A stretch of DNA of 64,000 bases. Source: Salvelinus alpinus. Taxonomy: Eukaryota > Chordata > Actinopteri > Salmoniformes > Salmonidae. The notes under the pieces were generated by a model. It did not search any database, was not told the origin of the DNA, and was given only the letters and a program-made list of their open reading frames with translations. Shown here piece after piece: positions 5,640 to 60,912 of the stretch. Within the stretch, counting starts at the first letter, position 1. Every line of letters begins with the position of its first letter. Where the stretch lies: positions 16,949,072 through 17,013,071 of the forward strand of contig NC_092091.1 in the NCBI RefSeq assembly GCF_045679555.1. The letters are read 5' to 3'. The translations under genes and the position numbers were made by a program.

Positions 5640-6953
5640 AGCTTGTGCTGTTAGGTGACCTAAACTGGGACATGCTTAACACCCCGGCCATCCTACAATC
5701 TAAGCTTGATGCCCTCAATCTCACACAAATTATCAATAAACCTACCAGGTACAACCCCAAATCCGTAAACACGGGCACCCTCATAGATGTCATCCTAACC
5801 AAGTTGCCCTCAAAATACACCTCTGCTGTCTTCAACCAAGATCTCAGCGATCACTGCTTCATTGCCTGCATCCGTAATGGGTCTGCGGTCAAACGACCAT
5901 CCCTCATCACTGTTAAACTCTCCCTAAAACACTTCAGCGAGCAGGCCTTTCTAATCGACCTGGCCCGGGTATCCTGGAAGGATATTGACCTCATCCCGTC
6001 AGTAGAGGATGCCTGGTTATTCTTTAAAAGTGCATTCCTCACCATCTTAAATAAGCATGCCCCATAAAAAAAAAAATAGAACTAGGAACAGATATAGCCC
6101 TTGGTTCACTCCAGACCTGACTGCCCTTGACCAGCACAAAAACATCCTGTGGCGTACTGCATTAGCATTGAATAACCCCAGTGATATGCAACTTTTCAGG
6201 GAAGTTAGGAACCAATATACACAGGCAGTTAGGAAGCAAAGGCTAGCTTTTTCCAACAGAAATTTGCATCCTGTAGCATAAACTCAAAAAAGTTCTGGGA
6301 CACTGTAAAGTCCATGGAGAATAAGAGCACCTGCTCCCAGCTGCCCACTGCACTGAGGTTAGGAAACAATGTCACCACCGATAAATCCACAATAATTGAG
6401 AATTTCAATAAGCATTTTTCTACGGCTGGCTATGCTTTCCACCTGGCTACCTCTACCCCGGGCAACAGCCCTGCACCCCCCACAGCAACTCGCCCAAGCC
6501 TCCCCCATTTCTCCTTCACCTAAATCCAGATAGCTGATGTTCTGAAAGAGCTCCAAAATCTGGACCCCTACAAATCAGCCGGGCTAGACAATCTGGACCC
6601 TCTCTTTCTAAAATGATCTGCCGAAATTGTTGCAACCCCTGTTACTAGCCTGTTCAACCTCTCTTTCGTATCGTCTGAGATTCCCAAAGATTGGAAAGCT
6701 GCCGCGGTCATCCCCCTCTTCAAAGGGGGAGACACTCTAGACCCAAACTGCTACAGACCTATATCTATCCTACCTTGCCTTTCTAAGGTCTTCGAAAGCC
6801 AAGTTAACAAACAGATTACCGACCATTTCAAATCCCACAGTACCTTCTCCGCTATGCAATCTGGTTTCAGAGCTGGTCATGGGTGCACCTCAGTCATGCT
6901 CAAGGCCCTAAATGATATCATAACCGCCATCGATAAGAGACAATACTGTGCAG
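5640..6953 (+). mobile_element. L2-like LINE copy A, 5' part (endonuclease to RT start)
   Basis: 5'-truncated LINE. The frame opens in the apurinic-type endonuclease at LLGDLNWD and continues through LSDHCFI (the catalytic SDH motif) to about 6067, then breaks. The linker and reverse transcriptase N-terminus follow at 6300-6950, with SAGLDNLDPLFLK, PLFKGGD, CYRPISILP and GFRAGHG readable but interrupted by stops. It halts inside the RT at 6953, where an LTR has inserted; the LINE resumes at 7960 in register. Confidence 0.8.
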
Positions 6954-7955
6954 TGTTGTGGAATATTGCCTCAGAAATATAACACTCTTACAAGAACTTG
7001 TGAATTCAATATAGACTTTAATACAAAGTAGCAAAGCCGTGCTGGTCCGCGGAAAAACAAACCTCCCTGAGCACTGGCTCTGCTTTTATACACATACAGC
7101 ATATGGGTACATCCCATATGTGAATGAAGTTACTCCCCTTAGTCCTTCTGCCACCATTATCTTTTAGTCTGAATTCTTTGCTTGTTCATGCCCAATAACG
7201 CCCATATCTGCTTCCGGTTAGATTATAATGGTGGCGGGACCCCTTTATGTCATACAAAAATAATACATTTATTGCATGCTTATGTTTCACCTGTTGGTCA
7301 TTTTGCTACCATCCTCCTTCCTGTTGTAACGGTAGTCGTCATATTCCTCCTCCTCGGACGAGGAGAGGCGAGAAGGATCGGACCAATACGCGGAGTGGTT
7401 AGTGTTCATGATGAATGATTTATTATAACGGAAAAACTGAACACTGAAAATACAAAACAAATAAACGAAGTGCAGAAAACAGATACAGTACCGTGTGGTG
7501 AAAAACACAAACACGGACACAAACACCCACAAAACACAAGTGAAACCCAGGCTGCCTAAGTATGATTCTCAATCAGGGAGAACGATTGACAGCTGCCTCT
7601 GATTGAGAATCATACCAGGCCGAACACAAAAATCCCTACATAGAAAATCAACCATAGACAAACCCACCCAACTCACGCCCTGACCAACTAAAATAAATAC
7701 AAGACAAAGGAAAACAGGTCAGGAACGTGACACCTGTGTCCTTCTGACATTAGTATGTACAGCTGTCATAAATGTACTTATGGCCTTGGCTAATGTACTC
7801 ATGTTCGTTTAGCTTTATGTAATTTTTGGCATGTTACCCTACTCAGAAATAGCAAATATACTGCGTGTAACCTTCTCTTCCTCTGGCCAATGTACTTATG
7901 TCCTTGCTACTTCAGCCTAGCAGCTGCACCTATTTATATTACATTAGCTCCCACA
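6954..7955 (-). mobile_element. LTR 'TGTTGTGG' family, copy 1, inserted in LINE A
   Basis: Begins TGTTGTGGAATATTG and ends CTCCCACA, flanked by a 4-bp GCAG duplication (6950-6953, 7956-7959) that restores the LINE sequence. On the minus strand AATAAA-like sequence near the left end supports an LTR reading toward the left. About 590 bp without the nested element at 7325-7732. Related copies begin at 33927, 51430 and 57654. Confidence 0.75.
7325..7732 (-). mobile_element. solo LTR 'TGTCACGTTC' family, copy 1 (nested)
   Basis: A 408-bp unit that on the minus strand begins TGTCACGTTCCTGACC and ends CCGTTACA, with a 5-bp CCTGT duplication on both sides (7320-7324, 7733-7737). Inside are a hairpin (GATTCTCAATCAG...CTGATTGAGAATC, 7564-7612), AATAAA-like sequence, and an ATG frame (start 7407-7409) that runs out through the LTR end: MNTNHSAYWSDPSR then an acidic Ser/Glu/Asp tract. 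The plus-strand copy at 19120-19492 has the same layout. I infer a gypsy-type LTR whose gag start lies inside the LTR. Confidence 0.75.
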
Positions 7956-7959
7956 GCAG

Positions 7960-9450
7960 CCGTATTCATCAACCTGGCCAAGGCTTTCGACTCTGTCAAT
8001 CACCACATTCTTATCGGCAGACTCAACAGCCTTGGTTTCTCAAATGACTGCCTCGCCTGGTTCACCAACTACTTCTCTGATAGAGTTCAGTGTGTCAAAT
8101 CGGAGGGCCTGTTGTCTGGACCTTTGGCAGTCTCTATGGGGGTTCAACAGGGTTCAATTCTCGGGCCTACTCTCTTCTCTGTATACATCAATGGTGTCGC
8201 TCTTGCTGCTGGTGATTCTCTGATCCACCTCTACGCAGACGACACCATTCTGTATACTTCTGGCCCTTCGTTGGACACTGTGTTAACTAACCTCCAGACG
8301 AGCTTCAATGCCATACAACTCTCATTCCATGGCCTCCAACTGCTCTTAAATGCAAGTAAAACTAAATGCATGCTCTTCAACCGATCGCTGCCCGCCCGCC
8401 CGCACCTTCCCGCCCGTCCAGCATCACTACTCTGTTCTGATTTGAAAATGTGGACAACTACAGACACCTAGGTGTCTGGTTAGACTGTAAACTCTCCTTC
8501 CAGACTCACATTAAGCCTCTCCAATCCAACATTAAATCTAGAATCGGCTTCCTAGATCGCAACAAAGCATCCTTCACTCATGCTGCCAAACATACCCTTG
8601 TAAAACTAACCATCCTACCAATCTTCGATTTCGGCGATGTCATTTACAAAATAGCCTCCATCACTCTACTCAACAAACTGGATGCAGTCTATCACAGTGC
8701 CATCCGTTTTGTCACCAAAGCCCCATATACTGCCCACCACTGCAACCTGTACACTCTCGTTGGCTGGCCCTCGCTTCATACTCGTCACCAAACCCACTGG
8801 CTTCAGGTCATCTACAAGTCTTTGCTAGGTAAAGCCCCGCCTTATCTCAGCTCACTGGTCACCATAGCAGCACCTACCCGTACCACGCGCTCCAGCAGGT
8901 ATATCTCACTGGTCACCCCCAAAGCCAATTCCTCCTTTGGCCAGCTTTCCTTACAGTTCTCTGCTGTCAATGACTGGAATGAACTGCAAAAATCACTGAA
9001 GCTGGAGACTCATATCTCCCTCACTAACTTTAAGCACCAGCTGTCAGAGCAGCTCACAGATCACTGCACCTGTACATAGCACATCTGTAAATACCCCATC
9101 CAATCTACCTCATCCCCATACTGTATTTATGTATTTATCTTGCTCCTTTGCACCCCAGTATCTCTACTTGCACATTCATCTTTTGCACATCTATCACTCC
9201 AGTGTTTAATTGCTATATTGCTATGGTCTATTTATTGCCTTACCTCCCTTATCTTACCTCATTTGCACACACTGTATATATACTTTTTCTACTATATTAT
9301 TGACTGTATGTTTGTTTATTCCATGTGTAACTCTGTGTTGTTGTATGTGTCGAACTGCTTTGCTTTATCTTGGCCAGGTCGCAGTTGTAAATGAGAACTT
9401 GTTCTCAACTAGCCTACCTGGTTAAATAAAGGTGAAATAAATAAAGAAAA
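7960..9450 (+). mobile_element. L2-like LINE copy A, 3' part (RT core and tail)
   Basis: Resumes the LINE broken at 6953. Reverse transcriptase motif A reads LAKAFDSVNH, motif B GVQQGSILGPTLF, and motif C YADDTILYT (about 8233-8260), the catalytic Asp pair. The frame shifts near 8450 and the C-terminal region continues to 9079. The 3' end is GTTAAATAAAGGTGAAAT, a tail typical of the salmonid LINE group related to HpaI SINEs. Several stops and frameshifts show it is inactive. Confidence 0.85.
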
Positions 9451-9731
9451 ATTATCTGTGCACCACTTTACAGACACCCCATCCAACGACAGTGATCGGA
9501 GGACCCTTTTTAGTAGCGACAGAGTAACGCGCTTGGCCCTAACCACTGCTCTATAATTTTTGGCAGTCAACCTCCCTCAACTCATGGTATGCCAGTTGGG
9601 TCTGGTGCGCTGTCCATCTGTTGCATGCCATATATATTCTCCTGCTGCTCCACCGACAGCACCATGCCAGCCAGGATGCTTGCATGCCCCAGGTACCCTT
9701 GCCCATTACAGCTGTAGAATGTTTTATAAAC
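9451..9731. other. unassigned spacer
   Basis: Short stretch between the LINE tail and the gypsy LTR. The frames that cross it show no domain, and I see no repeat family in it. Confidence 0.4.
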
Positions 9732-14120: not shown

Positions 14121-15471
14121 CCTGTTTGGGATATGGGGCGGTATTTTCACGTCCGGATGAAAAGTGTGCCCAAAGTAAACTGCCTGCTACTCAGGCCCAG
14201 AAGATAGGATGTGCATATAATTGGTAGAGTTGGATAAAAAACACTTTAAAGTTTCTAAAACTGTTATAATTCTGTCTGTAAGTATAACAGAACTCATTTC
14301 GCAGGCGAAACCCTGAGGACAAACCATCCAGGATTTTTTTGTTGTTGAGGTGACCATGTTTTCTATGGGAATCTAGATTTCGGAGGCATCTGGTTGCAAT
14401 TCCTTGGGCTTCCACTAGATGTCAACAGTCTTTAGAAATTGGTTGATGTTTTTCTTTTGAGTAATGAAGAAGTATGGCTATTTCAGAACGAGGGTCGAGA
14501 CTAGTGTACTGTTGTGTTTGGGGCGTGCAACCTAGCGCTCGCTCCACTTTAATTTTCTCCGCTATTGAGCGCAGTTTATTCCGTCTTAAATTTTATTGAT
14601 TATTTACGGAATAAAATACCTAAAGTTGTATTAGGAAAGTTATTTGAAGTGTTTGGACCGAGATTACAGGTAACTTATTAGATACTTACAAATACTTACA
14701 AGGTGGTGATTGACTCCGCTGTCCTGGCGTCGTGGAACAAACTCCCTCACGACGCCAGGACAGCGGAGTCAATCACCACCTTCCGGAGACACCTGAAACC
14801 CCACCTCTTTAAGGAATACCTAGGATAGGATAAAGTAATCCTTCTCACCCCCCCCCCCCCCTTAAAAGATTTAGATGCACTATTGTAAAGTGGCCGTTCC
14901 ACTGGATGTCATAAGGTGAATGCACCAATTTGTAAGTCGCTCTGGATAAGAGCGTCTGCTAAATGACTTAAATGTAAATGTAAATAATGTGTAGTCATGT
15001 TGGGCGAGTTGGAACCGGTGTTTTTCTAAATCAGACGCGCCAAATAAATGGACAAAATAAATGGAAATTTTGGGAATATAGCGACGGAATTAATCGAACA
15101 AAAGGACCATTTGTGAAGTTTATGGGACATATTGGTGTGCCAACAGAAGATCTTCAAAGGTAAGGCATGAATTATATCGTTATTTCTGAGTTCTGTGTCG
15201 CACCTGGCGGGTTGAAATATGATTGTCATGTGTTTGTTTGATGGGGTGCTGTCCTCAGATAATAGCATGGTTTGCTTTCGCCGTAAAGCCTTTTTGAAAT
15301 TTGACACAGTGGCTGGATTAACAAGAAGTTAAGCTGTATTTTGGTGTATTGCACTTGTGATTGTATGAAAGTTAAATATTTCTAATAATTTATTTTGAAT
15401 TTCGCGCTCTGCAATTTCACCGGATGTTGTCGAAACGTTCCGCTAGCGGAACCTCTAGCTGTAAAAAGGTT
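14121..15471 (+). mobile_element. TTAA-flanked piggyBac-like non-autonomous element, copy 2
   Basis: TTAA at 14117-14120 and 15472-15475 joins the interrupted Tc1 sequence CGCATTAA/GAAGG. It starts CCTGTTTGGGATATGGGG and ends CTAGCTGTAAAAAGGTT. It shares CACTAGATGTCAACAGTC and CACCGGATGTTGTCGAAA with copies 3 and 4. No transposase. A LINE fragment sits inside at 14700-14990. Confidence 0.75.
14700..14990 (+). mobile_element. truncated LINE 3' end with terminal palindrome
   Basis: Encodes the last residues of a LINE ORF (reading WNKLPHDARTAESITTF then RRHLKPHLFKEYLG and a stop), a C tract, and the tail GCTCTGGATAAGAGCGTCTG...AAATGTAAATGTAAAT. The same tail ends the SINE at 60741. Its 5' end is a 35-bp perfect inverted repeat (14700-14734 with 14748-14782) around a 13-nt loop. 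Confidence 0.7.
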
Positions 15472-35530: not shown

Positions 35531-38408
35531 AAAATGCAGAACTAAGAACAGATATAGCCCTTGGTTCACTCCAGACCTGACTGCCCTTGACCAGCACAAA
35601 AACATCCTGTGGCGGACTGTAATAACATTGAATAGTCCCCGCGATATGCAACTGTTCAGGGACGTCAGGAACCAATACACGCAGTCAGTCAAGAAAGCAA
35701 AGGCTAGCTTTTTCAAGCAGAAATTCGCATCCTGTAGCTCTAACTCCAAAAAGTTTTGGGACACTGTAAAGTCCATGGAGAACAAGAGCACCTCCTCCCA
35801 GCTGCCCACTGCACTGAGGCTAGGTAACACGATCACCACTGATAAATCCATGATAATCGAAAATGTAAAAAAAAATTCAATAAGCATTTCTCAACGGCTG
35901 GCCATGCCTTCCTCCTGGTGTAACGGATGTGAAATGGCTAGCTAGTTAGCGGGTACGCGCTACTAGCGTTTCAATCAGTTACGTCACTTGCTCTGAAACC
36001 TAGAAGTAGTGTTGCCCCTTGCTCTGCAAGGGCCGCGGCTTTTGTGGAGCGATGGGTAACGACGCTTCGTGGGTGTCAGTTGTTGATGTGTGCAGAGGGT
36101 CTCTGGTTCGCGCCCGAGGTCGGGGCGAGGGGACGTACTAAAGTTATACTGTTACATTGGTGCCGTGACCCGGATCACTGGTTGCTGCGGAAAAGGAGGA
36201 GGTTGAAAGGGGGGTGAGTGTAACGGATGTGAAATGGCTAGCTAGTTAGCGGGTACGCGCTACTAGCGTTTCAATCAGTTACAACACTTGCTCTGAAACC
36301 TAGAAGTAGTGTTGCCCCTTGCTCTGCAAGGGCCGCGGCTTTTGTGGAGCGATGGGTAACGATGCTTCGTGGGTGTCAGTTGTTGATGTGTGCAGAGGGT
36401 CCCTGGTTCGCGCCCGAGGTCGGGGCGAGGGGACGTACTAAAGTTATACTGTTACACTGGCTACTCCAATCCCGGCCAACAGCTACTCGCCCAAGCCTCC
36501 CCAGCTTCTCCTTCACCCAAATCCAGACAGCAGATGTTCTGAAAGAGCTGCAAAACCTGGACCCGTACAAATCAGCTGGGCTAGACAATCTGGACCCTCT
36601 CTTTCTAAAACTATCCGCCTCCGTTGTTGCAACCCCTATTACCAGCCTGTTCAATCTCTCTTTCGTATCGTCCGAGATCCCTAAAGATTGGAAAGCTGCC
36701 GCGGTCATCCCCCTCTTCAAAGGGGGTGACACCCTAGACCCAAACTGTTACAGACCTATATCCATCCTGCCCTGCCTATCTAAAGTCTTTGAAAGCCAAG
36801 TTAATAAACAGATCACTGACCATTTAGAATCCCACCATACCTTCTCCGCTGTGCAATCCGGTTTCCGAGCCGGTCACGGGTGCACCTCAGTCACGCTCAA
36901 GGTATTAAACGATATCATAACCGCCATCGATAAAAGACAGTAATGTGCAGCCGTCTTAATCGACCTGGCCAAGGCTTTCGACTCGGTCAATCACCATATT
37001 CTTATCGGGAGACTAAATAGCCTTGGTTTTTCAAATGACTGCCTCGCCTGGTTCACCAACTACTTTGCAGACAGAGTTCAGTGGGTCAAATCGGAGGGCC
37101 TGTTGTCCGGACCTCTGGCAGTCTCTATGAGGGTACCACAGGGTTCAATTCTCGGGCCGACTCTTTTCTCTGTATATATCAATGATGTCCCTCTTGCTGC
37201 GGGCGATTCCCTGATCCACCTCTACGCAGACGACACCATTCTGTATACTCCTGGCCCTTCCTTGGACACTGTGCTAACTAATCTCCAAATGAGCTTCAAT
37301 GCCATACAACACTCCTTCCGTGGCCTCCAACTGCTCTTAAACGCTATTAAAACAAAATGCATGCTTTTCAACCGTTCGCTGCCCGCACCCGCCCGCCCGA
37401 CTAGCATCACCACCCCTGGACGGTTCCGACCTTGAATATGTGGACAACTATAAATACCTAGGTGTCTGGCTAGACTGTAAACTCTCCTTCCAGACTCATA
37501 TTAAACATCTCCAATCCAAAATCAAATCTAGAATCAGCTTTCTATTTCGCAACAAAGCCTCCTTCACTCACGCCGCCAAACTTACCTGAGTAAAACTGAC
37601 TATCCTACCGATCCTCGACTTCGGCGATGTCATCTACAAAATAGCTTCCAATACTCTACTCAGCAAACTGGATGCAGTCTATCACAGTGCCATCCGTTTT
37701 GTAACCAAAGCCCCTTATAACACCCACCACTGTGACCTGTATGTTTTAGTCGCCAGACCCACTGGCCCCAGGTCATCTATAAGTCTATGCTAGGTAAAGC
37801 TCTGCCTTATCTCAGTTCACTGGTCATGATAACACCCACCCGTAGCACACGTTCCAGCAGGTATATCTCACTGATCATCCCCAAAGCCAACACCTCATTT
37901 GGCCGCCTTTCCTTCCAGTTCTCTGCTGCCAGTGACTGGAACGAATTGCAAAAATCGCTGAAGTTGGAGACTTTTATTTCCCTCACCAACTTTAAACATC
38001 AACTATCTGAGCAGCTAACCGATCGCTGCAGCTGTACTTAGTCCATCTGTAAATAGCACACCCAATCTACCTACCTCATCCCCATACTGTTTTTATTTTC
38101 TTTACTTTTCTGCTCTTTTGCACATCATCTGCTCATTTATCACTCCAGTGTTAATCTGCTAAATTGTAATTATTCACTCCTATGGCCTATTTATTGCCTA
38201 CCTCCTCATGCCTTTTGCATACACTGTATATAGACTTTCTTTTTTCTACTGTGTCATTGACTTGTTTATTGTTTACTCCATGTGTAACTCTGTGTTGTTG
38301 TCTGTGTCACACTGCTTTGCTTTATCTTGGCCAGGTCGCAGTTGCAAATGAGAACTTGTTCTCAACTAGCCTACCTGGTTAAATAAAGGTTAAATAAATA
38401 AATAAAAA
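35531..38408 (+). mobile_element. L2-like LINE copy B, split by a TRIM
   Basis: 5'-truncated. Linker 35570-35918, then the TRIM, then RT from 36461: SAGLDNLDPLFLKLSAS, PLFKGGDTLDPNCYRPIS, GFRAGHGCTSVTLKVLND, LAKAFDSVNH (motif A), PQGSILGPTLFS (motif B) and YADDTILYTPG (motif C). Stops at several points, for example after KRQ near 36942. The tail CTACCTGGTTAAATAAAGG ends at about 38408. Same subfamily as copies A and C. Confidence 0.85.
35919..36456 (+). mobile_element. TRIM-type LTR retrotransposon, complete copy 1
   Basis: Two 238-bp LTRs (35919-36156 and 36219-36456), TGTAACGGATGTG to ACTGTTACA, that differ at only about four positions. Between them are 62 bp: a primer site TGGTGCCGTGACCCGGAT (36158-36175), one mismatch from the complement of the tRNA-His 3' end, and a purine tract AAAGGGGGGTGAG ending at 36218. 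A 4-bp CTGG duplication flanks it (35915-35918, 36457-36460), and the LINE is continuous without it. No protein is encoded, so it depended on another element's enzymes. Confidence 0.9.
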
Positions 38409-38547
38409 TTATTCTGACATTTCACATCCTTAAAATAAAGTAGTGATCCTAACTGACCTAAAACAGGGAATTTTTACTTGGATTAAATGTCAGGAATTGT
38501 GAAAAACTGAGTATAAATGTATTTGTAAACTTCCGACTTCAACTGTA

Positions 38548-42417: not shown

Positions 42418-42457
42418 CGTAAGACAGAGCAAGGATATCTGTTTTGGTACTACTTAC

Positions 42458-45400
42458 CCTTCATTGAACCAGTCTGTGAAGTTGAGTCATCTTTGAAGTT
42501 GAACGACTCTGGCAGCACACTGAACCTCAGAACACTGTTCTCCTCAAGAGGCAAAAGAGCAGGGCTCCTGATCTTATTTGTACTTTTTTCCACTGTATCA
42601 GGTTTGCTGGATGGCACCGCCTTGATCCTAGATTTCTTCAGTCTGAGTTTCAGGCCATTTAAGATTCTCTCTCTTTCAATGTGCCGCAAAGTCTGCTTGG
42701 CCCTTACGGTTCTTTCTGGTGTGGCTCGTCTTTCAGAGGATAATGCACTACCATCTGTGCTGGTCGAGGTAACAGTATTTTTGGCAACTTCAGCACAAAC
42801 AATCTTCGGAGCAAAGCCTCTTCTGTTTCGTAGTCTTGATGCTCTGCCCCTGGACTTTGTCTTCTTTGTTGGCACAAAACTGTTCTCCCACTCGTTGAAG
42901 AGCCGTTGTCTGACTGGGCTTTCCACTGGCGGGCTGGTCTCGGAGGGCTCTATCCTCCAGGACTTGACATTCACACTGAGGGTTATAGGAGGTGCTGGAG
43001 CTTTGTCTGCAAAAGGTCTAGGTCGAGAAGAATTATGGTCCTTGCGTTGGCCAGTTACTACAGTCCCATTTGTTCTCTGGGGCGAGGAACCAAACAAGGC
43101 CAGACTTACTGTGGTGACCCTTGAAATCTTGGTCCCAATTCCAGGTTCTGCTGGCTTCTGGAGATTGCGACCATTTGAAGGTCGCTCTTCTTCCAAAGAG
43201 TTAGAAGCACTTGTATTGGGGGGCTCGAAATCGTCATCTGTGTCAGTCAAGTTGACCTCAGGAACAAGTTGAATGAAGGGACCCAAACCTTGCCTTATTT
43301 TCCTTCGCTTTCTTGGGACAGACAATTTTGAATGAGGACCTTCAACACATCTCTTGTGTCCAACCCCTTTTTGTTTAACCTTGCAGCTACAATTTAATTT
43401 AGGCGATAGATGCTTGTGACATCTTTGTGCCAAGGAGAGTGATGTTAGAAAACTGATTTTCTCTGCTGGTTGGCGTAGCAGATTAGAAGTAGGAATGGTA
43501 ACTGTAGGAATGACTTCACTACCCCCAAGGATCCTTTCTTCCAAAGTGACACTAAGTGCTTGTACACATTCCATTTGTTTCTGGAGTGGACCTGATAGTT
43601 GCTGCTTTGGCTGTACATTGTCCCACACCAGCTCGGACATTGGGGTGGATACTTTGAGAAAGTCTTCATAGCTCGAGAAGACATCTTCAATTTCAACTTC
43701 AATAATGTTTGGGCACTTGATGGGCAGGCACAGTGATGGGGGTTTTGACAATGGCAAGCTCTTCGCCCCATTAGTGTATGGGCGATCAGTCTCAGATTCA
43801 CTATCAGACAAGACAAAAGTTTGGCATTCAATGCCTGTAGATTTCCATGATTGGGGATTCCCATTTTTACCAGGATTCCCTTCCCTCTCTCCTTCTGCTG
43901 TGCCATTTGATTTACATAAATGCAGGCTTTCCCTTTGTTCTGCATTTGTTGTGCTCGGTTCAACAGCCAAAGTTCCCTCGACAAACATCTTCGCATTCAC
44001 AGTGGCCTTTGTCAAACCCAATTCAGCCTTGTACTGGCATTTGCAGGACACAGAATTGGTGGACCCACTGAACACTGCCTTCCAACGTGAGAGACAACAG
44101 TAATCTTCTGATTGGACATCCACTTCGTATTTTACAGTCGTCAACTTTACATCTACACCCTCAGATGATTTATCCTCCACGGAGTAATCTTTCAACTCAT
44201 TCAGCTCCACATCCACTGGCAATTTCAACTGGTCTTCTCCCACTTTGTCTTGCAGTAGCGGTCCATTGAAAAACCGCATAGCCTCTTCTGGTGGCAGCAC
44301 GTTGATCTCCAGGGAGGAAAATGGATCACAAAAAAGTATGTTTTCACTTTCTTTCTTAACTGGTGAGAGGGTATGTGTAGATCTGTGTGCCAAACTTGAC
44401 CCTTGAATTTCTTTAGGATCAGATTCAGAGGATGCTGGTCTCTCTGTCTGAATCACCTCAGTCTGCATGTCACTGGCAGAGTCTGAAGAATTTTCATTTT
44501 CGGTACAATTCCGTTTTGGTTGTTCATCTCTTTGAAGAGTCTGTTGGTCATATATTAGTGACCAAGGGAATCCAAACTCCCTGTCTATGTCATCAAGCTG
44601 CTTATTGGTGTTCAACCATGAGGACTCTTGACCCGGGACCTCGGGGTAAACAGAATCATGTTTAAGAATGACACATTTCTCTTCAACTTGAGCCCAGTTT
44701 TTGCGCCTGACTTGTGAAAATATGACAGACTGTGATGACATATCGTCGCCACACACAGATCGAACCTCTCGCATTGTATTCCATAAAATACCAGATCTTG
44801 CAGCATCTATAAGCTTCTGCCCATCTCCATCCCAATAGAGGCTTAGTAGCTTGCTTTCAACTTGTGTCTCAGAGCATTTTGGATGTTGCACAGTGTCTAC
44901 CAACTCCTTCAATTTACCAAGTCTCCATTTGATTACAGGAACTGAGGACAAATCAAAAATGTCATCTGAAACTACTTTTTCATTTGTTTCCTCACTCAAT
45001 TGGTTAACATGCACATGAGTGGTCATTTCTCTGCCAGCTAACTCTTTTCTCTGAGTGGCTTGACATTTCAAATTAGATAATGGTTGAGAATCCACTTTCT
45101 CTACATGTAAGCAGTTTGATCGTGACCATTCAGACTCAAAATTTGAATATGTCTTGGCCAGTTCAACATCTGAAGTTTCTGAATCCTGAGTCACTGTTCT
45201 TTCAGCACCCGATTCTAATGTAGCTTCTGGTCTGACCTTGGGGACTATTTGTCCAGATTCATTTGTCAAAGAAACAGATACAGTAAGAGTTGTTTTGGCT
45301 TGTGATGGACTTTGGTCACAAGATTCTTCCCCAGGGTTGCTCACATTTTCACCACCAGTTGAGAACGACATACCTTGGGTAGTCAAGGGCATTCTATCAG

Positions 45401-47183
45401 CCACATTGAGAGATGTGTTTGTCTGCATACACTGCGATAGTGGTTGTACAATGGCGATGGCCTTCTGCACCGTAGGAACAGAGAGGGCATTACTTGCAGA
45501 TGATCCTTGCCGCACCAGAGCACTTTCATTAGGTTTATCTCCTATCAAAATAACATTTTCTGCTCTAAATCCATTTCCACTTTTGTCCTCTGTTACCGTT
45601 ACGTAATAGCCCTGTCTTATGGGGTATGACGGCGGCACAGACTCACAGTTTTGCTGGCCTGAAAACTGCATACCATGGTTTAGCACAGAAGAAGATGGTC
45701 CAGTGTTGGATATCAAAACATTGGCGTTTTTTGGCTTGTTATGTAGTGTATGGGCTGAGCCTTGGTTTGGTATGTATTGCAGAGAATGTGCTCCTGCCCC
45801 AACCACATGTCCCGTCTTGTTCAGCACGGGTCCATGGGAGTGCTGGCCTGGGTATGGTGGAGGAGCGGACTCCCGGGTGTGCTCGACTGAAGACTGTATA
45901 CTATCGTTTGGCACAGATGAAGATGGTCCAGTGTTGGATCCCAGAGCATAGGTGCCGCCTGCCTTGTAATGTAGGTTGGATACGCCTTCGATATGGAGCC
46001 TAGGATATGGGGCATGGTGTGCATTATTTTCAATGGCCCCTGCCTGACTGTTCATATTTGCACAATTTGACGCAAGTCTGTTCTGTTGTGGTGGGTTGGT
46101 AAGGCCTGCAGGGCGATATCTTTGAAAATTATTAAGAGAAGGGTTATGCATAACATTGTATTGAGGATTCTGGCTAATGTTATGCATTGGCATTGACTGC
46201 CCCACTGTAGCATTTGGTAGATTGACCTGGTTGTTGCTGTCTGTGAGAGGTTGGAAGGGATACATTTGCCTGTGGTTTGATGGGTCAGTTTGGACAGGTG
46301 TGCCATGTTGAACCCTGTTCATCTCAGTCCTGTTGTTATTGTTTTGATTTTGAATCAAATGCAACCGTTGTTTATATGCTGTGGGAGACAGTGGAGATGT
46401 CCTTGATGGTACACTACTTGTCTCCTGTGCACTTTGCAAAGAGTTTGGTGTTTGTGGATACCCCTGATGAAGAGCTTGAACTGCCATCCTACTTGAATCC
46501 TTTCCACTGACTACAGTCCATTGATGATTGACATGATTGGGACTCCTACCCATTGCAAGAGCAGCAGAGGTACCACTGGAGGCCCCCTCTTGTCTGCCAA
46601 GTACCAGCTGCTGACTACCACTTGCTGGGCTTTGGAGATAAATACAATTTGTATTCAGTGATGCATTAATATCAGAGGGGCAGTGAATGGTTGCACCCTG
46701 ACCATTCTGTACCAACCTCTGTGAATTGTTACTATTAACACCTAAAGACCCATGTCCCTGCTGGAAAGTGGGTTTAAATGCATCGTTAACCCTTCCGGGC
46801 AGGGTGTGATGGTATCCACTTTGTGATGTAACAGCAGTTGATTGTGCAGCTGCATTGTTAGTCAAGAGTGATGTCAAAAGGGGACTAGTGGCCATTAGGG
46901 CCTGCTCTTTTGTGGGTGCCTGTTGATTCTGGGTCTGTCCACTCCAGTAACCTACACTGGTTACTTGACTGCTGTGTGGTAGGCATTCACCACCTTGAGT
47001 ATATGGGACCGCTGGTCCGACTTCCCTACCAAGTGTATACGCCACAGATGGTCTGACCGGCCCATATTGATGAGAATAGGTGCTCGGATTCCCACTCAGC
47101 TGACCACTGGTGACTTGGGGACTTGAGGATTGTCCAGTGACTGATCGATCCGGTCCACTTTGGGGCCAGGTAGAGGTCTGCAT
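42458..47183 (-). CDS. resf1: retroelement silencing factor 1, giant coding exon
   Basis: One exon codes for about 1575 residues. The start chosen is ATG 47181-47183 (MQTSTWPQSGPD), the first in-frame ATG after a strong acceptor (TTTTTCATTTCAG, exon start 47241); the donor AGG/GTAAGTAG ends it at 42458. With the two small exons the product is about 1640 residues; human RESF1 has about 1750, also mostly from one exon. Long Gln/Asn/Ser-rich N-terminus; helical-looking VIKWRLGKLKELVDTV at about 749; SLEINVLPPEEAMRFF and then YCCLSRWKAVF...SCKCQ (about 960-1045), matching human RESF1 I-x-ILSSEQ and CC-x-W-x-C-x-C modules; basic PRKRRKIRQ near 1289 (likely nuclear localisation signal); VLRFSVLPESFNFKDD near the end. 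RESF1 is a nuclear partner in SETDB1-linked silencing of endogenous retroviruses. An internal repeat (SNTGPSSSV, twice) lies at about 410-520. Intact, no frameshift. Confidence 0.8.
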
Positions 47184-47241
47184 TCTCCTTGGCTTCTCAG
47201 TCTCGCCTTCTGCCCTGTGGTATGGCAGAACGTAACCATTT

Positions 47242-48039
47242 CTGAAATGAAAAACATGATAAACCAGGATTAGCCCAACAAAACACACAGTAACAAATGT
47301 GGCTTGAATCCAATGGTAAAAATCTAGGGTATGGCAATCTGGTGCCAGAAAGCCATCATATTCTTTGAAAGCATAGAAGAGATCGGTAGGCTAGCTGCTA
47401 TTTTTTCACCACTGGCGTAAACTGAGGTGGGCCGCTCGACTGGAGACACCCAAGATGTCAGGACACTGCATCAGCGCTACACCCATGACTTAGGGTACGC
47501 AACAGAAACTCATACACACATCCGAGGTTGAGGGGTCTGGAACGGTACATTGGTTTACTCCCCGTGAGAATGGACTGATGGGAACTGAAGACAAAAATTA
47601 TCAGATGGACTGAAGGTAAAGGAGGAGACTTGAGTCCAGTAGAAGTACAAGCGGTCACGTCAAGATAAAACGGCTACTATAAATTTAACCTCTCTCGTAC
47701 TCAAGGTTATACATTAACTTAATTAATTATGCATTCATTACTACATTCTCATGACTATGCAATGTCTCTCATAGAACATGAGTTTGTCACAATGGGATGG
47801 ATTTATCACAGAGCTTAATTTTCTTTATTTACGGTACATTTTCAATCTGTTCTGTATTGTTTCCTATGATGGAAACTGTATGACTTGTGCCGATTCTTAT
47901 TGTATAATTAGCTCATTGGTATGGGTTAGGTTGTTGGAGCTTGTGTGTGTTATTGTAGCAAAAAGGGTAAGTACAGAAAGTGTCGGTTTCAGGTCAGACA
48001 ATTTTAGTTGTGTATATTAAGATTAAGGAAGTATGTAAA
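47242..48039 (-). other. start of a long resf1 intron; unassigned
   Basis: Follows upstream of the giant exon's acceptor. No repeat family or conserved frame is recognised; probably unique intron DNA. Confidence 0.4.
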
Positions 48040-51360: not shown

Positions 51361-51429
51361 ACGTTGCTCTTATATCCAGTAGTTCCTCCCGACTGTATGT
51401 AATAAAGCCTAAGATTACCAGTTACAACG

Positions 51430-51590
51430 TGTTGTAGAAATATTTGCTCATTATTATTTCTCAGATACAGGAACTTGTGAATTCAAATAGAATTTAATAC
51501 AAAGTAACAAGCCGAGCTGGTTCATGGATCAACCGACTTTCCAGCCTTGGCACACACTTTTTATACAGTTTTCATGCTTACGTCAAACAC
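51430..51590 (-). mobile_element. LTR 'TGTTGTAG' family, copy 3, first segment
   Basis: Starts TGTTGTAGAAATATTTG and carries AGGAACTTGTGAATTCAA as in copies 1 and 2. A LINE interrupts it at 51591; it continues at about 53206-53436 and, after a hAT-like element, at 55334-55475. Confidence 0.65.
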
Positions 51591-53190
51591 ATCTCTTTCT
51601 AAAATGATCTGCCGAAACTGTTGCAACCCCTATTACCATCCTGTTCAACCTCTCTTTCGTATCGTCTGAGATTCCCAAAGATTGGAAAGCTGCCGCGGTC
51701 ATCCCCCTCTTCAAAGGGGGTGACACTCTAGACTCAAACTGCTACAGACCTATATCTATCCTACCCTGTCTTTCTAAGTTCTTCGAAAGCCAAGTGAACA
51801 AACAGATTACCGACCATTTCGAATCCCACCGTACCTTCTCCGCTATGCAATCTGGTTTCAGAGCTGGTCATGGGTGCACCTCAGCCACGCTCAAGGTCCT
51901 AAATGACATCATAACCGCCATCGAAAAGAGACATTACTGCGCAGCCATATTCATCGACTCTGTCAATCACCACATTCTTATTGGCAGACTCGACAGCCTT
52001 GGTTTCTCAAATGATTGCCTTGCCTGGTTCACCAACTACTTCTCTGATAGAGTTCAGTGTGTCAAATGGGAGGGCCTGTTGTCCGGACCTCTGGCAGTCT
52101 CTATGGGGGTGCCACAGGGTTCAATCCTCGGGCTGACTCTCTTCTCTGTATACATCAATGATGTTGCTCTTGCTGCTGGTGATTCTCTGATACACCTCTA
52201 CGCAGACGACACCATTCTGTATACTTCTGGCCCCTCTTTGGACACTGTGTTAACAAACCTCCAGACGAGCTTCAATGCCATACAACTCTCCTTCCGTGGC
52301 CTCCAACTGCTCTTAAACGCAAGTAAAACGAAATGCATACAATTCAACCGATCACTGCCCGCACCTGCTCTCCTTCACTCATGCTGCCAAAAATACCCTC
52401 GTAAAACTGACCATCCTACCGATCCTCGACTTCGGTGATGTCATCTATAAAATAGCCTCCAACACTCTACTCAACAAACTGGATGCAGTCTATCACAGTG
52501 CCATCCATTTTGTCACCAAAGCCCCATACACTACCCACCATTGCGACCTGTACGCTCTCGTTGGTTGGCCCTCGCTTCATACTCGTCGCCAAACCCACTG
52601 GCTACAGGTTATCTGCTAGGTAAAGCCCCGCCTTATCTCAGCTCACTGGTCACCATAGCAGCACGCGCTCCAGCAGGTATATCTCACTGGTCACCCCCAA
52701 AGCCAATGCCTCCTTTGGTCGCCATTCCTTACCAGTTCTCTGCTGCCAAAGACTGGAACGACCTGCAAAAAACTCCCTCACTAGCTTTAAGCATCAGCTG
52801 TCAGAGCAGCTCACAGATTACTGCACCTGTACATAGCCCATCTATAATTTAACCCAAACAACTACCTCTTCCCCTACTGTATTTATTTATTTCCTTTGCA
52901 CCCCATTATTTATATTTCTACTTTGCACATTCTTCCACTGCAAATCTCCCATTCCCGTGTTTTACTTGCTATATTGTATTTACCTCGCCACCATGGCCTT
53001 TTTTGCCTTTACCTCCCTTATCTCACCTCATTTGCTCACATTGTATATAGACTTATTTTTCTACTGTATGTTTTGTTTATTCTGTGTTGTTGTATGTGTC
53101 GAATTGCTATGCTTTATATTGGCCAGGTCGCAGTTGCCAATAGGAACTTGTTCTCAACTAGCCTACCTGGTTAAATAAAGGTGAAATAAA
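51591..53190 (+). mobile_element. L2-like LINE copy C
   Basis: 5'-truncated LINE in the RT domain: TFSAMQSGFRAGHGCTSAT, PQGSILGLTLFSVYIND, YADDTILYTSG. The motif A segment LAKAFD is deleted (the sequence goes from AIFID straight to SVNHH), removing a catalytic Asp. Further deletion near 52370 fuses parts of the C-terminal region. Tail CTACCTGGTTAAATAAAGG near 53180. Confidence 0.85.
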
Positions 53191-53205
53191 ATTAAAATAA
53201 AAAAA

Positions 53206-53436: not shown

Positions 53437-55333
53437 ATAATCGGTCAACCTCTAATTAGATTTTAACGCCAATACCGATTATTGGGGGGACCAAAAAAAG
53501 CTGATAGCGATCAATCGGCCGATTTTTTTTATTTATTTGTAATAATGACAATTACAACAACACTGAAGGAACACTTATTTTAACTTAATATAATACATCA
53601 ATCAATTCAATTTAGCCTCATAAATAATGAAACATGTTCAATTTGGTTTAAATAATGCAAATACAAAGTGTTGGAGAAGAAAGTAAAAGTGCAATATGTG
53701 CCATGTAAAAAAGCTAACGTTTTAGTTCCTTGCTCAGAACATGAGAACATATGAAAGCTGATGGTTCCTTTTAACATGAGTCTTCAATATTCCCAGGTAA
53801 GAAGTTGTAGGTTGAGGTTATTATAGGACTATTTCTCTCTATACCATTTGTATTTCATATACCTTTGACTATTGGATGTTCTTATAGGCACTTCAGTATT
53901 GCCTGTAACAGTATAGCTTCCGTCCCTCTCCTCGCCCCTACCTGGGCTCGAATCAGGAACACATCGACAACAGCAACCCTCGAAGCATCGTTACCCATCG
54001 CTCCACAAAAGCTGCGACTCTTGCAGAGCAAGGGGAGCAACTACTCCAAGTCTCAGAGCGAGTGACGTTTGAAACGCTATTAGCGCGCACCCTGCTAACT
54101 AGCTAGCCATTTCACATCGGTTACACCAGCCTAATCTCGGGAGTTGATAGGCTTGAAGTCATAAACAGCGCAAGAGCTGCTTGAAAACACACGAAAGTGC
54201 TGTTTGAATGAGTGCTTACGAGCGTGCTGCTGCCTACCACCGCTACGTCAGACTGCTCTATCAAATCATAGACTTAATTATAACACACAGAAATACGAGC
54301 CATAGGTCATTAATATGGTTAAATCCGGAAACTATCATTTTGAAAATAAAACGTTTATTCTTTCAGTGAAATACGAAACCGTTCCGTATTTTATCTAACG
54401 GGTGGCTTCCATAAGTCTAAATATTCCTGTTACATTGCACAACCTTCAATGTTATAATCATAATTACGTAAAATTCTGGCAAATTAGTTCGCAACGAGCC
54501 AGGCGGCCCAAACTGTTGCATATACTCTGACTCTGTGTGCAATGAACGCAAGAGAAGTGACAATTTCCCTAGTTTAATATTGCCTGCTAACATGAATTTA
54601 TTTTAACTAAATATGCAGGTTTAAAAATATATACTTCTGTGTATTGATTTTAAGAAAGGCATTGATGTTTATGGTTAGGTACATTCAAGCAACGATTGTG
54701 CTTTTTTCGCAAATGCACTTTTGTTAAATCATCCCCCGTTTGGCGAGTTGGCTGTCTTTGATAGGAAGAAATAGTCTTCACAGTTCGCAACGAGCCAGGC
54801 GGCCCAAACTGCAAGAGAAGTGACACAATTTCCCTAGTTAAAAGAAATTCATGTTAGCAGGCAATATTAACTAAATATATAAAAAAATATATACTTGTGT
54901 ATTGATTTTAAGAAAGGCGTTGATGTTTATGGTTAGGTACATATTGGTGCAACGACAGTGCTTTTTTCGCAAATGCGCTTGTTAAATCACCCATTTGGCG
55001 AAGTAGGCTATGATTCAATGATAAATTAACAAGCACCGTATCAATTATATGCAACGCAGGACAAGCTACATAAACTAGTAATATCATCAACCATGTGTAG
55101 TTAACTAGTGATTATGTTAATTAAGATTGATAGTTTTTTATAAGATACGTTTAATGCTAGCTAGCACCTTACCGTGGCTCCTTGCTGCACTCATAACAGG
55201 TAGTCAGTCTGCCACGCAGTCTCCTCGTGGAGTGCAATGTAATCGGCCATGATCGGTGTCCAAATATGCAGATTACCGATTGTTATGAAAACGGCCCTAA
55301 TTAATCGGCCATTCCGATTAATCGGTCGACCTC
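53437..55333. mobile_element. hAT-like element with internal duplication
   Basis: Ends carry AATCGGTCAACCTC and its partner ATTAATCGGTCGACCTC, with CTATGCTCC/CTCTACTCC flanks. About 1.9 kb including a nested TRIM LTR. A 300-bp segment is duplicated in tandem: GTTCGCAACGAGCCAGGCGG at 54488 and 54784, and GTTTATGGTTAGGTACAT at 54668 and 54925. No transposase seen. Confidence 0.65.
53904..54125 (-). mobile_element. TRIM-type solo LTR
   Basis: 222 bp from TGTAACAGTATAGC to CATCGGTTACA, the reverse of the TRIM LTRs at 35919, including GCTAGTTAGCAGGGTGCGCG and the GACGTTT/ACGTCACTC zone. No second LTR or interior is attached. No matching target duplication was found. Confidence 0.75.
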
Positions 55334-55475
55334 TACTCCTAATGAACCTTACTGGACTAGGTAACGGCTTCCCTTAGCCTAATGACCTAGACACACATAA
55401 GAGTAGTACACAGAGTAAGTGCACTCTAAGAAGTATAATGTGCACCAATGTACTGGAAAATTACCAATAAAACGC
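55334..55475 (-). mobile_element. LTR 'TGTTGTAG' family, copy 3, third segment
   Basis: Contains CTTCCCTTAGCCTAATG and CCCAGACACACA-like sequence also found at 58570-58605 in copy 4. Cut on the right by a Tc1 end. Confidence 0.5.
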
Positions 55476-57932: not shown

Positions 57933-57936
57933 TTTA

Positions 57937-58459
57937 TGAAACAGTTTTAACTTTACGTCCGTCCCCTCGCCCCGACCCAGGGACCCTCTGCACACATCAA
58001 CAACTGACACCCACGAAGCGTCGTTACCCATCGCTCCACAAAGGCCGCGGCCCTTGCAGAGCAAGGGGAACCACTACTTCAAGGTCTCAAAGCGAGTGAC
58101 GTAACCGATTGAAACGCTATTAGCGCACACCACCGCTAACTAGCTAGCCATTTCACATCCGTTACACTCACCCCCCTTTCGACCTCCTCCTTTTCCGCAG
58201 CAACCAGTGATCCGGGTCAACAGCATCAATGTAACAGTATAACTTTACGTCCGTCCCCTCGCCCGCGAACCAGGGACCCTCTGCACACATCAACAACAGT
58301 CTCCCACGAAGCATCGTTACCCATCGCTCCACAAAAGCCGCGGCTTTTGCAGAGCAAGGGGAACCACTACTTCAAGGTCTCAAAGCGAGTGACGTAACCG
58401 ATTGAAACGCTATTAGCGCGCACCACCGCTAACTAGCTAGCCATTTCGCATCCGTTACA
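57937..58459 (-). mobile_element. TRIM-type LTR retrotransposon, complete copy 2
   Basis: Two 230-bp LTRs (57937-58166 and 58230-58459) around a 63-bp interior, in reverse orientation to copy 1. The interior keeps the purine tract (as CACCCCCCTTT) and a diverged primer site (GGTCAACAGCATCAATG on the plus strand). A TTTA duplication flanks it (57933-57936, 58460-58463). The LTRs differ more than in copy 1, so it is older. Confidence 0.85.
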
Positions 58460-58687
58460 TTTACACCCATCTTAACTCGGATATCACTCCTCTAAATGGC
58501 ACAGACTTCCGAGCATAGATTCTACTGGTGGCGTAACCATAGGAATGGTACAAAGAAATGCCTAATGACCCTTCCCTTAGCCTAATGGCCCAGACACACA
58601 CATACGGTAAAGCCTATATTGATTCTTCTCTAAGATACATAACACGTGTAATGGAAAATCCCCTATAGGCACAGCATGTAGCTGTGG

Positions 58688-60737: not shown

Positions 60738-60912
60738 AAAGGGAGTCATTGTGGCTCAGTTGGTAGAGCATGGCGCTTGCAACACCGGGGTTGTGGGTAT
60801 GATTCCCACGGGGACCAGCATGGAGAGAAAAAAATACAAGCATCTATGCACAAACTACTGTAAATCACTCTGGCTAAGAGTGTCTGCTAAATGACTGAAA
60901 TGTAAAATGTTG
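60738..60912 (+). repeat. tRNA-derived SINE with LINE-type tail
   Basis: A box GTGGCTCAGTTGGTAGAG, B box GGTATGATTCCC, then the tail TCTGGCTAAGAGTGTCTGC then TAAATGACTGAAATGTAAA, which is also the 3' end of the LINE fragment at 14700-14990. It resembles the AvaIII/V-SINE type. Confidence 0.75.

Follow-up and report, generated by a model that had tools for sequence, protein, structure and literature searches.

A probable Helenus-type, tRNA-His-primed terminal-repeat retrotransposon in miniature in the genome of the char Salvelinus alpinus

The window analysed here, a stretch of 64,000 nucleotides from the char Salvelinus alpinus (NCBI RefSeq assembly GCF_045679555.1, contig NC_092091.1, positions 16,949,072 to 17,013,071 of the forward strand), contains two complete copies (A and B) of a short element that, judged by its sequence, is practically certain to be a terminal-repeat retrotransposon in miniature (TRIM). 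The element, about 540 bp long and non-coding, is probably a salmonid member of the Helenus type (TRIMp3), the TRIMs with tRNA-derived promoters in their long terminal repeats (LTRs) that were described by Kojima (2024; PMC10886601): it would be transcribed by RNA polymerase III (Pol III) from a tRNA-like promoter inside its LTR, primed by tRNA-His and mobilised in trans. Assignment to Helenus itself hinges on the promoter boxes and is moderately supported.

Copy A measures 538 bp in total and is without coding capacity. Its two LTRs, of 238 bp each, differ by four mismatches and enclose an interior of 62 bp (36157-36218), in which the primer site begins one base past the 5′ LTR and a purine tract lies near the 3′ LTR (Table 1), the purine run nearest that LTR (GAAAGGGGGG) stopping four bases (TGAG) short of it. 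The host of the insertion is a long interspersed nuclear element (LINE); once joined, the flanks match an uninterrupted LINE copy (6385-6530) across CCTGGCTAC, which thereby represents the empty site, and a second stretch tried as empty site (51381-51520) gave no alignment to the joined flanks. Coordinates, mismatches and empty site confirm what the initial annotation had proposed, namely two 238-bp LTRs with about four differences around a 62-bp interior, inserted in a LINE with duplication of CTGG. Its second full copy (57937-58459) with a TTTA duplication was recovered as well: copy B, on the minus strand (58459-57937), has both LTRs, a 63-bp interior and TTTA on each side, and its LTRs are 93% identical, i.e. 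more diverged than those of copy A. The window holds three LINE copies with reverse transcriptase pieces, all in the same orientation and about 15-30 kb apart (6071-9455, 35531-38412 and 51470-53204).

Searching 2.37 Gb of the char genome with the 5′ LTR of copy A gave 66 matches from the 40 candidates that were scored among 2161 first-look candidates, a figure that is no copy count; copy B as query gave 48 listed matches (3334 candidates). The 40 loci fetched from the copy A search, one of which (L048) is copy A itself, were chosen by similarity to copy A and are hence young, and their solo fraction is no estimate for the genome. Two or more full LTRs were found in 22 of them, a truncated second LTR in three (L010, L030 and L032) and solo LTRs only in 15, so that two-LTR copies occupy 25 of the 40 loci when truncated second LTRs are counted. 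Flanking matches of at least 4 bp frame 21 of the 22 complete copies (L047 has none, and L021, with a 6-bp match, lies in a CA repeat), and a 4-bp duplication is present at 12 of 16 solo LTRs and absent at four, one solo LTR (L043) standing beside a full copy. All 23 interiors from the 22 complete loci are 62-63 bp long. The dispersed family that had been predicted is thus borne out, and so is its identity as a TRIM, with an LTR-interior-LTR arrangement of less than 1 kb, a primer site, a purine tract, target site duplications, solo LTRs and an empty site.

Linkage between the two LTRs of a copy was evident from the 23 pairs, since all of 10000 random re-pairings gave larger distances. Four pairs are without mismatch and the maximum is 18 mismatches, and because of the pairs without differences the family looks recently active in char. 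Only in 7 of 23 cases is an LTR closest to its own partner, a low rate that may stem from one LTR per copy having been selected for closeness to the query. Some loci are arrays, with three LTRs in L040, four in each of L084 and L085, and four full LTRs plus one partial LTR in L123. In L084 and L085 the nearest relative of each LTR is the neighbouring LTR, a kinship that fits unequal exchange; L084 is flanked by GAGG and L085 has no exact duplication. No description of a salmonid TRIM was found in the literature, nor any of six sequence fragments in the text of published papers; an existing name in Repbase or Dfam is quite possible. The interior had no match in IMG/VR, a scan that may leave out near records.

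BLAST of copies A and B against the window returned, besides short inverted self-matches, these two copies and an older LTR (53904-54125), which had initially been taken for a solo member of the family. It is a real LTR of this family and not an independent insertion, since 27 of the 30 loci fetched with it as query (40 matches were listed from 1921 candidates) share the same LTR, the same CTGG duplication and the same outer flanks. The repeat that carries it (minus strand, 53474-55336 in the window; loci L054-L083) is about 1.6-1.9 kb long with TAGAGGTCGACCGATTA-type ends, and it seems that a transposable element has multiplied the TRIM LTR as a passenger.

The primer site of copy A is complementary at 18 of 18 positions to the char tRNA-His with its CCA, as given by the genome's own tRNA-His genes. 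The initial annotation was therefore right about the tRNA and wrong about the one mismatch it reported, which is presumably a difference from the mammalian tRNA-His. The genome contains GGTTCRANTCCGRGTCACGGCA at 18 sites, every time with CCGGGTCACGGCA: three of them are TRIM copies by position (L111, L118 and L119), and of the other 15, four were read (L124-L127) and are identical tRNA-His genes. An early idea took TGACTCGG for the perfect primer site and supposed a different tRNA for the majority site; it was discarded because the char tRNA-His reads CCGGG. The TGACTCGG site follows this type of LTR end at three places only (L052, L053 and the rearranged L051). Behind the 18-nt site and a CACT spacer stands GGTTGCTGCGG, which matches the complement of a later part of tRNA-His at 11 of 11 positions and in the same order, so that two blocks of tRNA-His complement (18 + 11 nt) make up most of the first 34 bases of the interior. 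An 11-nt match was reached by 2 of 5000 dinucleotide shuffles of that stretch, and the second block is exact in 21 of the 25 interiors that a script found in the 40 loci. Two further loci (L129 and L130) contain an unbroken 38-nt complement of tRNA-His. A scan with ARAGORN reported no tRNAs. The arrangement in two blocks has a precedent in Ty1, the primer site of which is likewise bipartite, with a small internal loop between the segments (PMC5371799). Sequence alone could hardly bring priming by tRNA-His closer to proof.

In one copy of the family, the primer site holds DNA that was copied from mature tRNA-His. This copy (L128, G000:C33:6496900-6498300, at the place of L119) runs from the LTR end through a T, 75 bases and a U5 piece into an ordinary interior with a GATGCTG site, and the 75 bases are identical at every position to the complement of mature tRNA-His, CCA included. 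The four tRNA-His genes that were read encode no CCA and continue with TTGC; the source was therefore the mature tRNA. TAGA stands on both sides of the copy; between its LTRs there are 8 mismatches and 10 gap positions. A primer-site copy, a U5 piece and an interior follow each other in a similar order in L051, which could alternatively derive from a deletion inside a tandem array. A very young copy (L131, G000:C8:87066700-87067800), with LTRs identical over 235 bp and a CATA duplication, carries a part of tRNA-His in sense orientation behind its primer site, and in L133 the last 76 LTR bases and the 18-nt primer site are followed by unrelated DNA. The latter possibly goes back to plus-strand strong-stop DNA, the synthesis of which is believed to halt at nucleotide 58 of the primer (PMC1785368). 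The pattern by which L128-L133 were found demanded the 18 bases, the exactness of which in these loci is thus no separate evidence.

Primer sites are of two types: 17 of the 23 interiors have a mutated site (GATGCTGTTGACCC; GATGCTG) and six have a site of tRNA type (GGTGCC). Mismatch-free LTR pairs occur with both (L025 with GGTGCC; L026, L041 and L043 with GATGCTG). The nearest LTR to a GGTGCC copy lies in a GATGCTG copy in three of six cases (an LTR identical to that of L025 is present in L027) and is tied in the other three, and on these grounds the GGTGCC sites are not one clade, by a crude test that the presence of 16 GATGCTG copies versus five others tilts towards GATGCTG. Rewriting of the primer site from tRNA-His in single events would explain the scattered GGTGCC sites, recombination between copies being a rival explanation for the same scatter. 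The inherited GATGCTG sites, for their part, would fit the mode of Ty1 and Ty3, in which the sequence of the primer tRNA is not passed on (PMC5371799).

We tentatively propose that the interior has hardly any sequence that is the element's own and consists of a purine tract and a captured, shortened primer tRNA-His that survives as two collinear blocks. The mutated site would usually be inherited and occasionally rewritten from tRNA-His, and in L128 the whole mature tRNA would have been copied past the A58 stop. If true, a vertebrate TRIM would serve as a natural assay of how primers are inherited and read through. Through genome comparison the family could also show whether the sequence of the primer tRNA is handed down in vertebrate LTR elements, in the retroviral manner, or bypassed like in Ty1/Ty3, and how frequently reverse transcriptase continues beyond A58 of the primer; single events could be caught in copies with identical LTRs (L131, L025). 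Ty1 and Ty3 differ from the char TRIM in that they are coding and use another tRNA, which in Ty1 is the initiator tRNA-Met (tRNA-iMet), and in that some char copies carry tRNA-type primer sites. The primer of Ty3 is also tRNA-iMet (PMC5371799).

In the search for a putative promoter, an alignment of 15 LTRs, most of them chosen as diverged, was scored for conservation in 20-base windows. The best conserved LTR positions are 123-144 (TTTGTGGAGCGATGGGTAACGA; window 0.997, alignment mean 0.927), and they include a box-A-like sequence, TGGAGCGATGGG, 48 nt ahead of a box-B-like sequence, GGTTCGCGCCC. In 57 of 64 LTRs there is exactly one TTTT (none in five, two in two), and in 55 of the 64 it is located at LTR position 122, directly before box A. 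The 5′ LTR of the old copy L052 has TGGCGCGATGGG together with a fully paired T arm. A joint score for box A, box B and the T stem was reached by 0 (L052 5′ LTR), 2 (L053 5′ LTR), 6 (L053 3′ LTR), 10 (old solo LTR), 25 (copy A 3′ LTR) and 430 (L052 3′ LTR, in which the T arm is lost) of 1000 dinucleotide shuffles, and the opposite strand of the same LTRs scored 15-17 versus 17-21. The boxes reported for Helenus LTRs are box A TRGCY..YGG and box B GGTTC (PMC10886601); TRGCY is represented inexactly, by TGGAG in copy A and TGGCG in L052, and TGG and GGTTC are present. With box-A- and T-arm-like sequences and usually a single TTTT in its LTR, the element may thus be a Helenus.

If so, this internal promoter (box A and T arm) would direct RNA synthesis from shortly ahead of box A in the 5′ LTR as far as the TTTT that immediately precedes box A in the 3′ LTR, and the RNA would have a short terminal repeat. 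The model for this is Cassandra, a plant TRIM with a transcript that begins in the 5′ LTR, ends in the 3′ LTR and likewise has a short terminal repeat (PMC10886601). Mature tRNA-His would then anneal through its 3′ 18 nt and the second, 11-nt block, and a tRNA-His-primed LTR element would supply Gag, reverse transcriptase and integrase in trans. Cassandra and the char element have in common that they are TRIMs and that their LTRs hold a Pol III promoter, a putative one in the char; the promoter of Cassandra is derived from 5S rRNA and its transcription has been shown, whereas that of the char TRIM would be tRNA-like.

Several observations weigh against a Pol III promoter of this kind. LTR positions 15-44 are, with 0.98-0.99, second in conservation and nearly equal to the box-A stretch, and the box-B-like core (0.921) is no better conserved than the LTR mean (0.927). 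The joint score is partly post hoc, its T-arm term having been added after the older copies were seen. It followed a plainer box-A/B score that was weak, being attained by 39-66 of 1000 shuffles for five LTRs and by 280 and 836 for copy B. The Rfam tRNA model matched no LTR up to E = 10 among copy A, the old solo LTR and L052, and comparison of LTRs with human tRNAs was without significance (53-167 of 500 shuffles in four; 124-462 of 1000 for Val), the sole significant case being the old solo LTR (2 of 500). The 3′ LTR of copy B has no TTTT, and Pol III starting upstream of box A would at once meet the TTTT of the 5′ LTR. The Rfam result, the weak first box test, the human tRNA comparison in all LTRs tested but one and the unexceptional box-B core are what one expects of an ordinary TRIM, tRNA-His-primed and mobilised in trans, with box-like sequences that arose by chance and the usual LTR promoter for RNA polymerase II. 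We consider such a TRIM unlikely, if still a serious candidate, in view of the joint score for box A and T arm, the conserved box-A stretch with a single TTTT ahead of it, and the absence from copies A and B of poly(A) signals and TATA boxes, neither AATAAA nor ATTAAA nor TATA[AT]A having been found there.

The Helenus assignment also agrees with the known traits of that group. Animal Helenus elements have 4-bp duplications, and those of vertebrates use tRNA-His, -Leu or -Lys as primer (PMC10886601). The char TRIM shares with them two short LTRs with box-A/B-like sequence, between which there is only a primer site and a purine tract, as well as the 4-bp duplication and the tRNA-His primer. Akin to LTR-11_DR of zebrafish, which forms tandem arrays and numbers 5575 LTRs (PMC10886601), it occurs in tandem arrays and at high copy number, a likeness of description and not of alignment. 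Unlike Helenus as described, the char TRIM has a second tRNA-His block and copies with captured primer tRNA. Pol III transcription is unproven for Helenus too (PMC10886601). The fishes in Table 1 of the same source are coelacanth, sterlet, paddlefish, Cypriniformes, catfish and milkfish, with no Salmoniformes in that table, and a later mention of Helenus is a single sentence in a meeting report (PMC12859917). If the promoter part holds, Helenus-type TRIMs are extended to a char, beyond that species table of 2024.

A coding partner was sought with a pattern composed of this LTR end and either type of tRNA-His-like primer site, the next TRIM base being excluded; it gave 42 sites (control, 0) in a search that is not exhaustive, as partners sharing the usual next base escape it. 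Thirty-seven sites were fetched as short stretches, of which a script called 31 TRIM and six uncertain; on reading, four of the six (L088, L104, L119 and L101) proved TRIM-derived and two (L097 and L115) had another LTR, giving 35 TRIM-derived sites and two with a different LTR. By position, the other five of the 42 are also parts of TRIM copies: L024 accounts for one, L123 for two, and matches of the copy B search for two. The LTRs of L097 and L115 end in CCGGTTACA and are followed by the same spacer and 18-nt tRNA-His site. Longer stretches at these places (L132 and L134, respectively) share 64 bp around the site at 83% and belong to another LTR-like family, with a GGTTACA end and an 18-nt tRNA-His primer site; L134 runs on into a minisatellite of about 78 bp. 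The seven open reading frames of at least 110 amino acids in L132 contained no reverse transcriptase or integrase domain and one Tc-type transposase (L134 was not scanned). Both are leads to a partner and not a proven one. An autonomous element with the same LTR ends and primer site, which the initial annotation had named as the candidate source of enzymes, did not come up in this limited search.

Internal deletion is one way by which TRIMs can arise (PMC10886601), and the two tRNA-His-primed, LTR-like sites with GGTTACA ends might be taken to suggest that the char TRIM derives in this way from a single coding LTR element, which has the same LTR and persists in the genome. We regard this as very improbable, given that 35 of the 37 fetched sites are TRIM-derived, that the other two have a different LTR, and that all seven frames of L132 are devoid of the expected domains; a one-off deletion product did not appear either, the copies being abundant and no coding parent having surfaced in the limited search. 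More improbable still is a foldback DNA element or miniature inverted-repeat transposable element, with the LTR unit transposing on its own and the two-LTR form a tandem dimer: the TGTAAC/GTTACA ends, the strong RNA fold of the LTR (35919-36156; z -6, far better than shuffles), the common single units with 4-bp duplications and the arrays of three to four units would suit it. It is rejected on account of the captured tRNA with CCA at an LTR junction and the linkage of LTR pairs, which together with the conserved interior of 62-63 bp, containing a primer site and a purine tract, point to reverse transcription; a fold in which no pair has changed on both sides further disfavours it. The fold was also tried as a conserved RNA hairpin and rejected as such, with 0 of 48 pairs changed on both sides.

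Table 1. Positions in the window of TRIM copies A and B, their candidate functional sequences and the passenger LTR.
Feature	Position	Strand	Remark
Target site duplication CTGG, left (copy A)	35915..35918	+	
Copy A 5′ LTR, 238 bp, TGTAAC...GTTACA	35919..36156	+	
Sole TTTT of copy A 5′ LTR	36040..36043	+	counterpart in 3′ LTR is the candidate Pol III terminator
Box-A-like TGGAGCGATGGG	36045..36056	+	within best conserved LTR stretch
T-arm/box-B-like sequence	36102..36118	+	core GGTTCGCGCCC at 36105-36115
Primer site TGGTGCCGTGACCCGGAT	36158..36175	+	18/18 complement of char tRNA-His with CCA
Second tRNA-His block GGTTGCTGCGG	36180..36190	+	11/11, collinear
Purine-rich stretch (AAAAGGAGGAGG TT GAAAGGGGGG)	36191..36214	+	polypurine-tract candidate
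Copy A 3′ LTR	36219..36456	+	
TTTT of copy A 3′ LTR	36340..36343	+	candidate Pol III terminator
Target site duplication CTGG, right (copy A)	36457..36460	+	
Older solo LTR inside another repeat	53904..54125	-	
Copy B 3′ LTR	57937..58166	-	TTTA at 58460-58463 and 57933-57936
Copy B interior, 63 bp	58167..58229	-	primer site of GATGCTGTTGACCC form
Copy B 5′ LTR	58230..58459	-	

Elsewhere in the window, a tRNA-like head followed by a UnaL2 LINE 3′ element (60745-60900) resembles a short interspersed nuclear element with a LINE tail. Another UnaL2 element lies at 14919-14972. An open frame of 1646 amino acids (42453-47390) gave no Pfam match at E 0.001 and shares 98% identity, over 96% of its length, with a protein of Salvelinus namaycush; its relatives, in salmonids, pike and mudminnow, are named si:ch211-106e7.2 or uncharacterized. 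Two tandem copies of 68 bp, with 100% matches, are found at 637-775.

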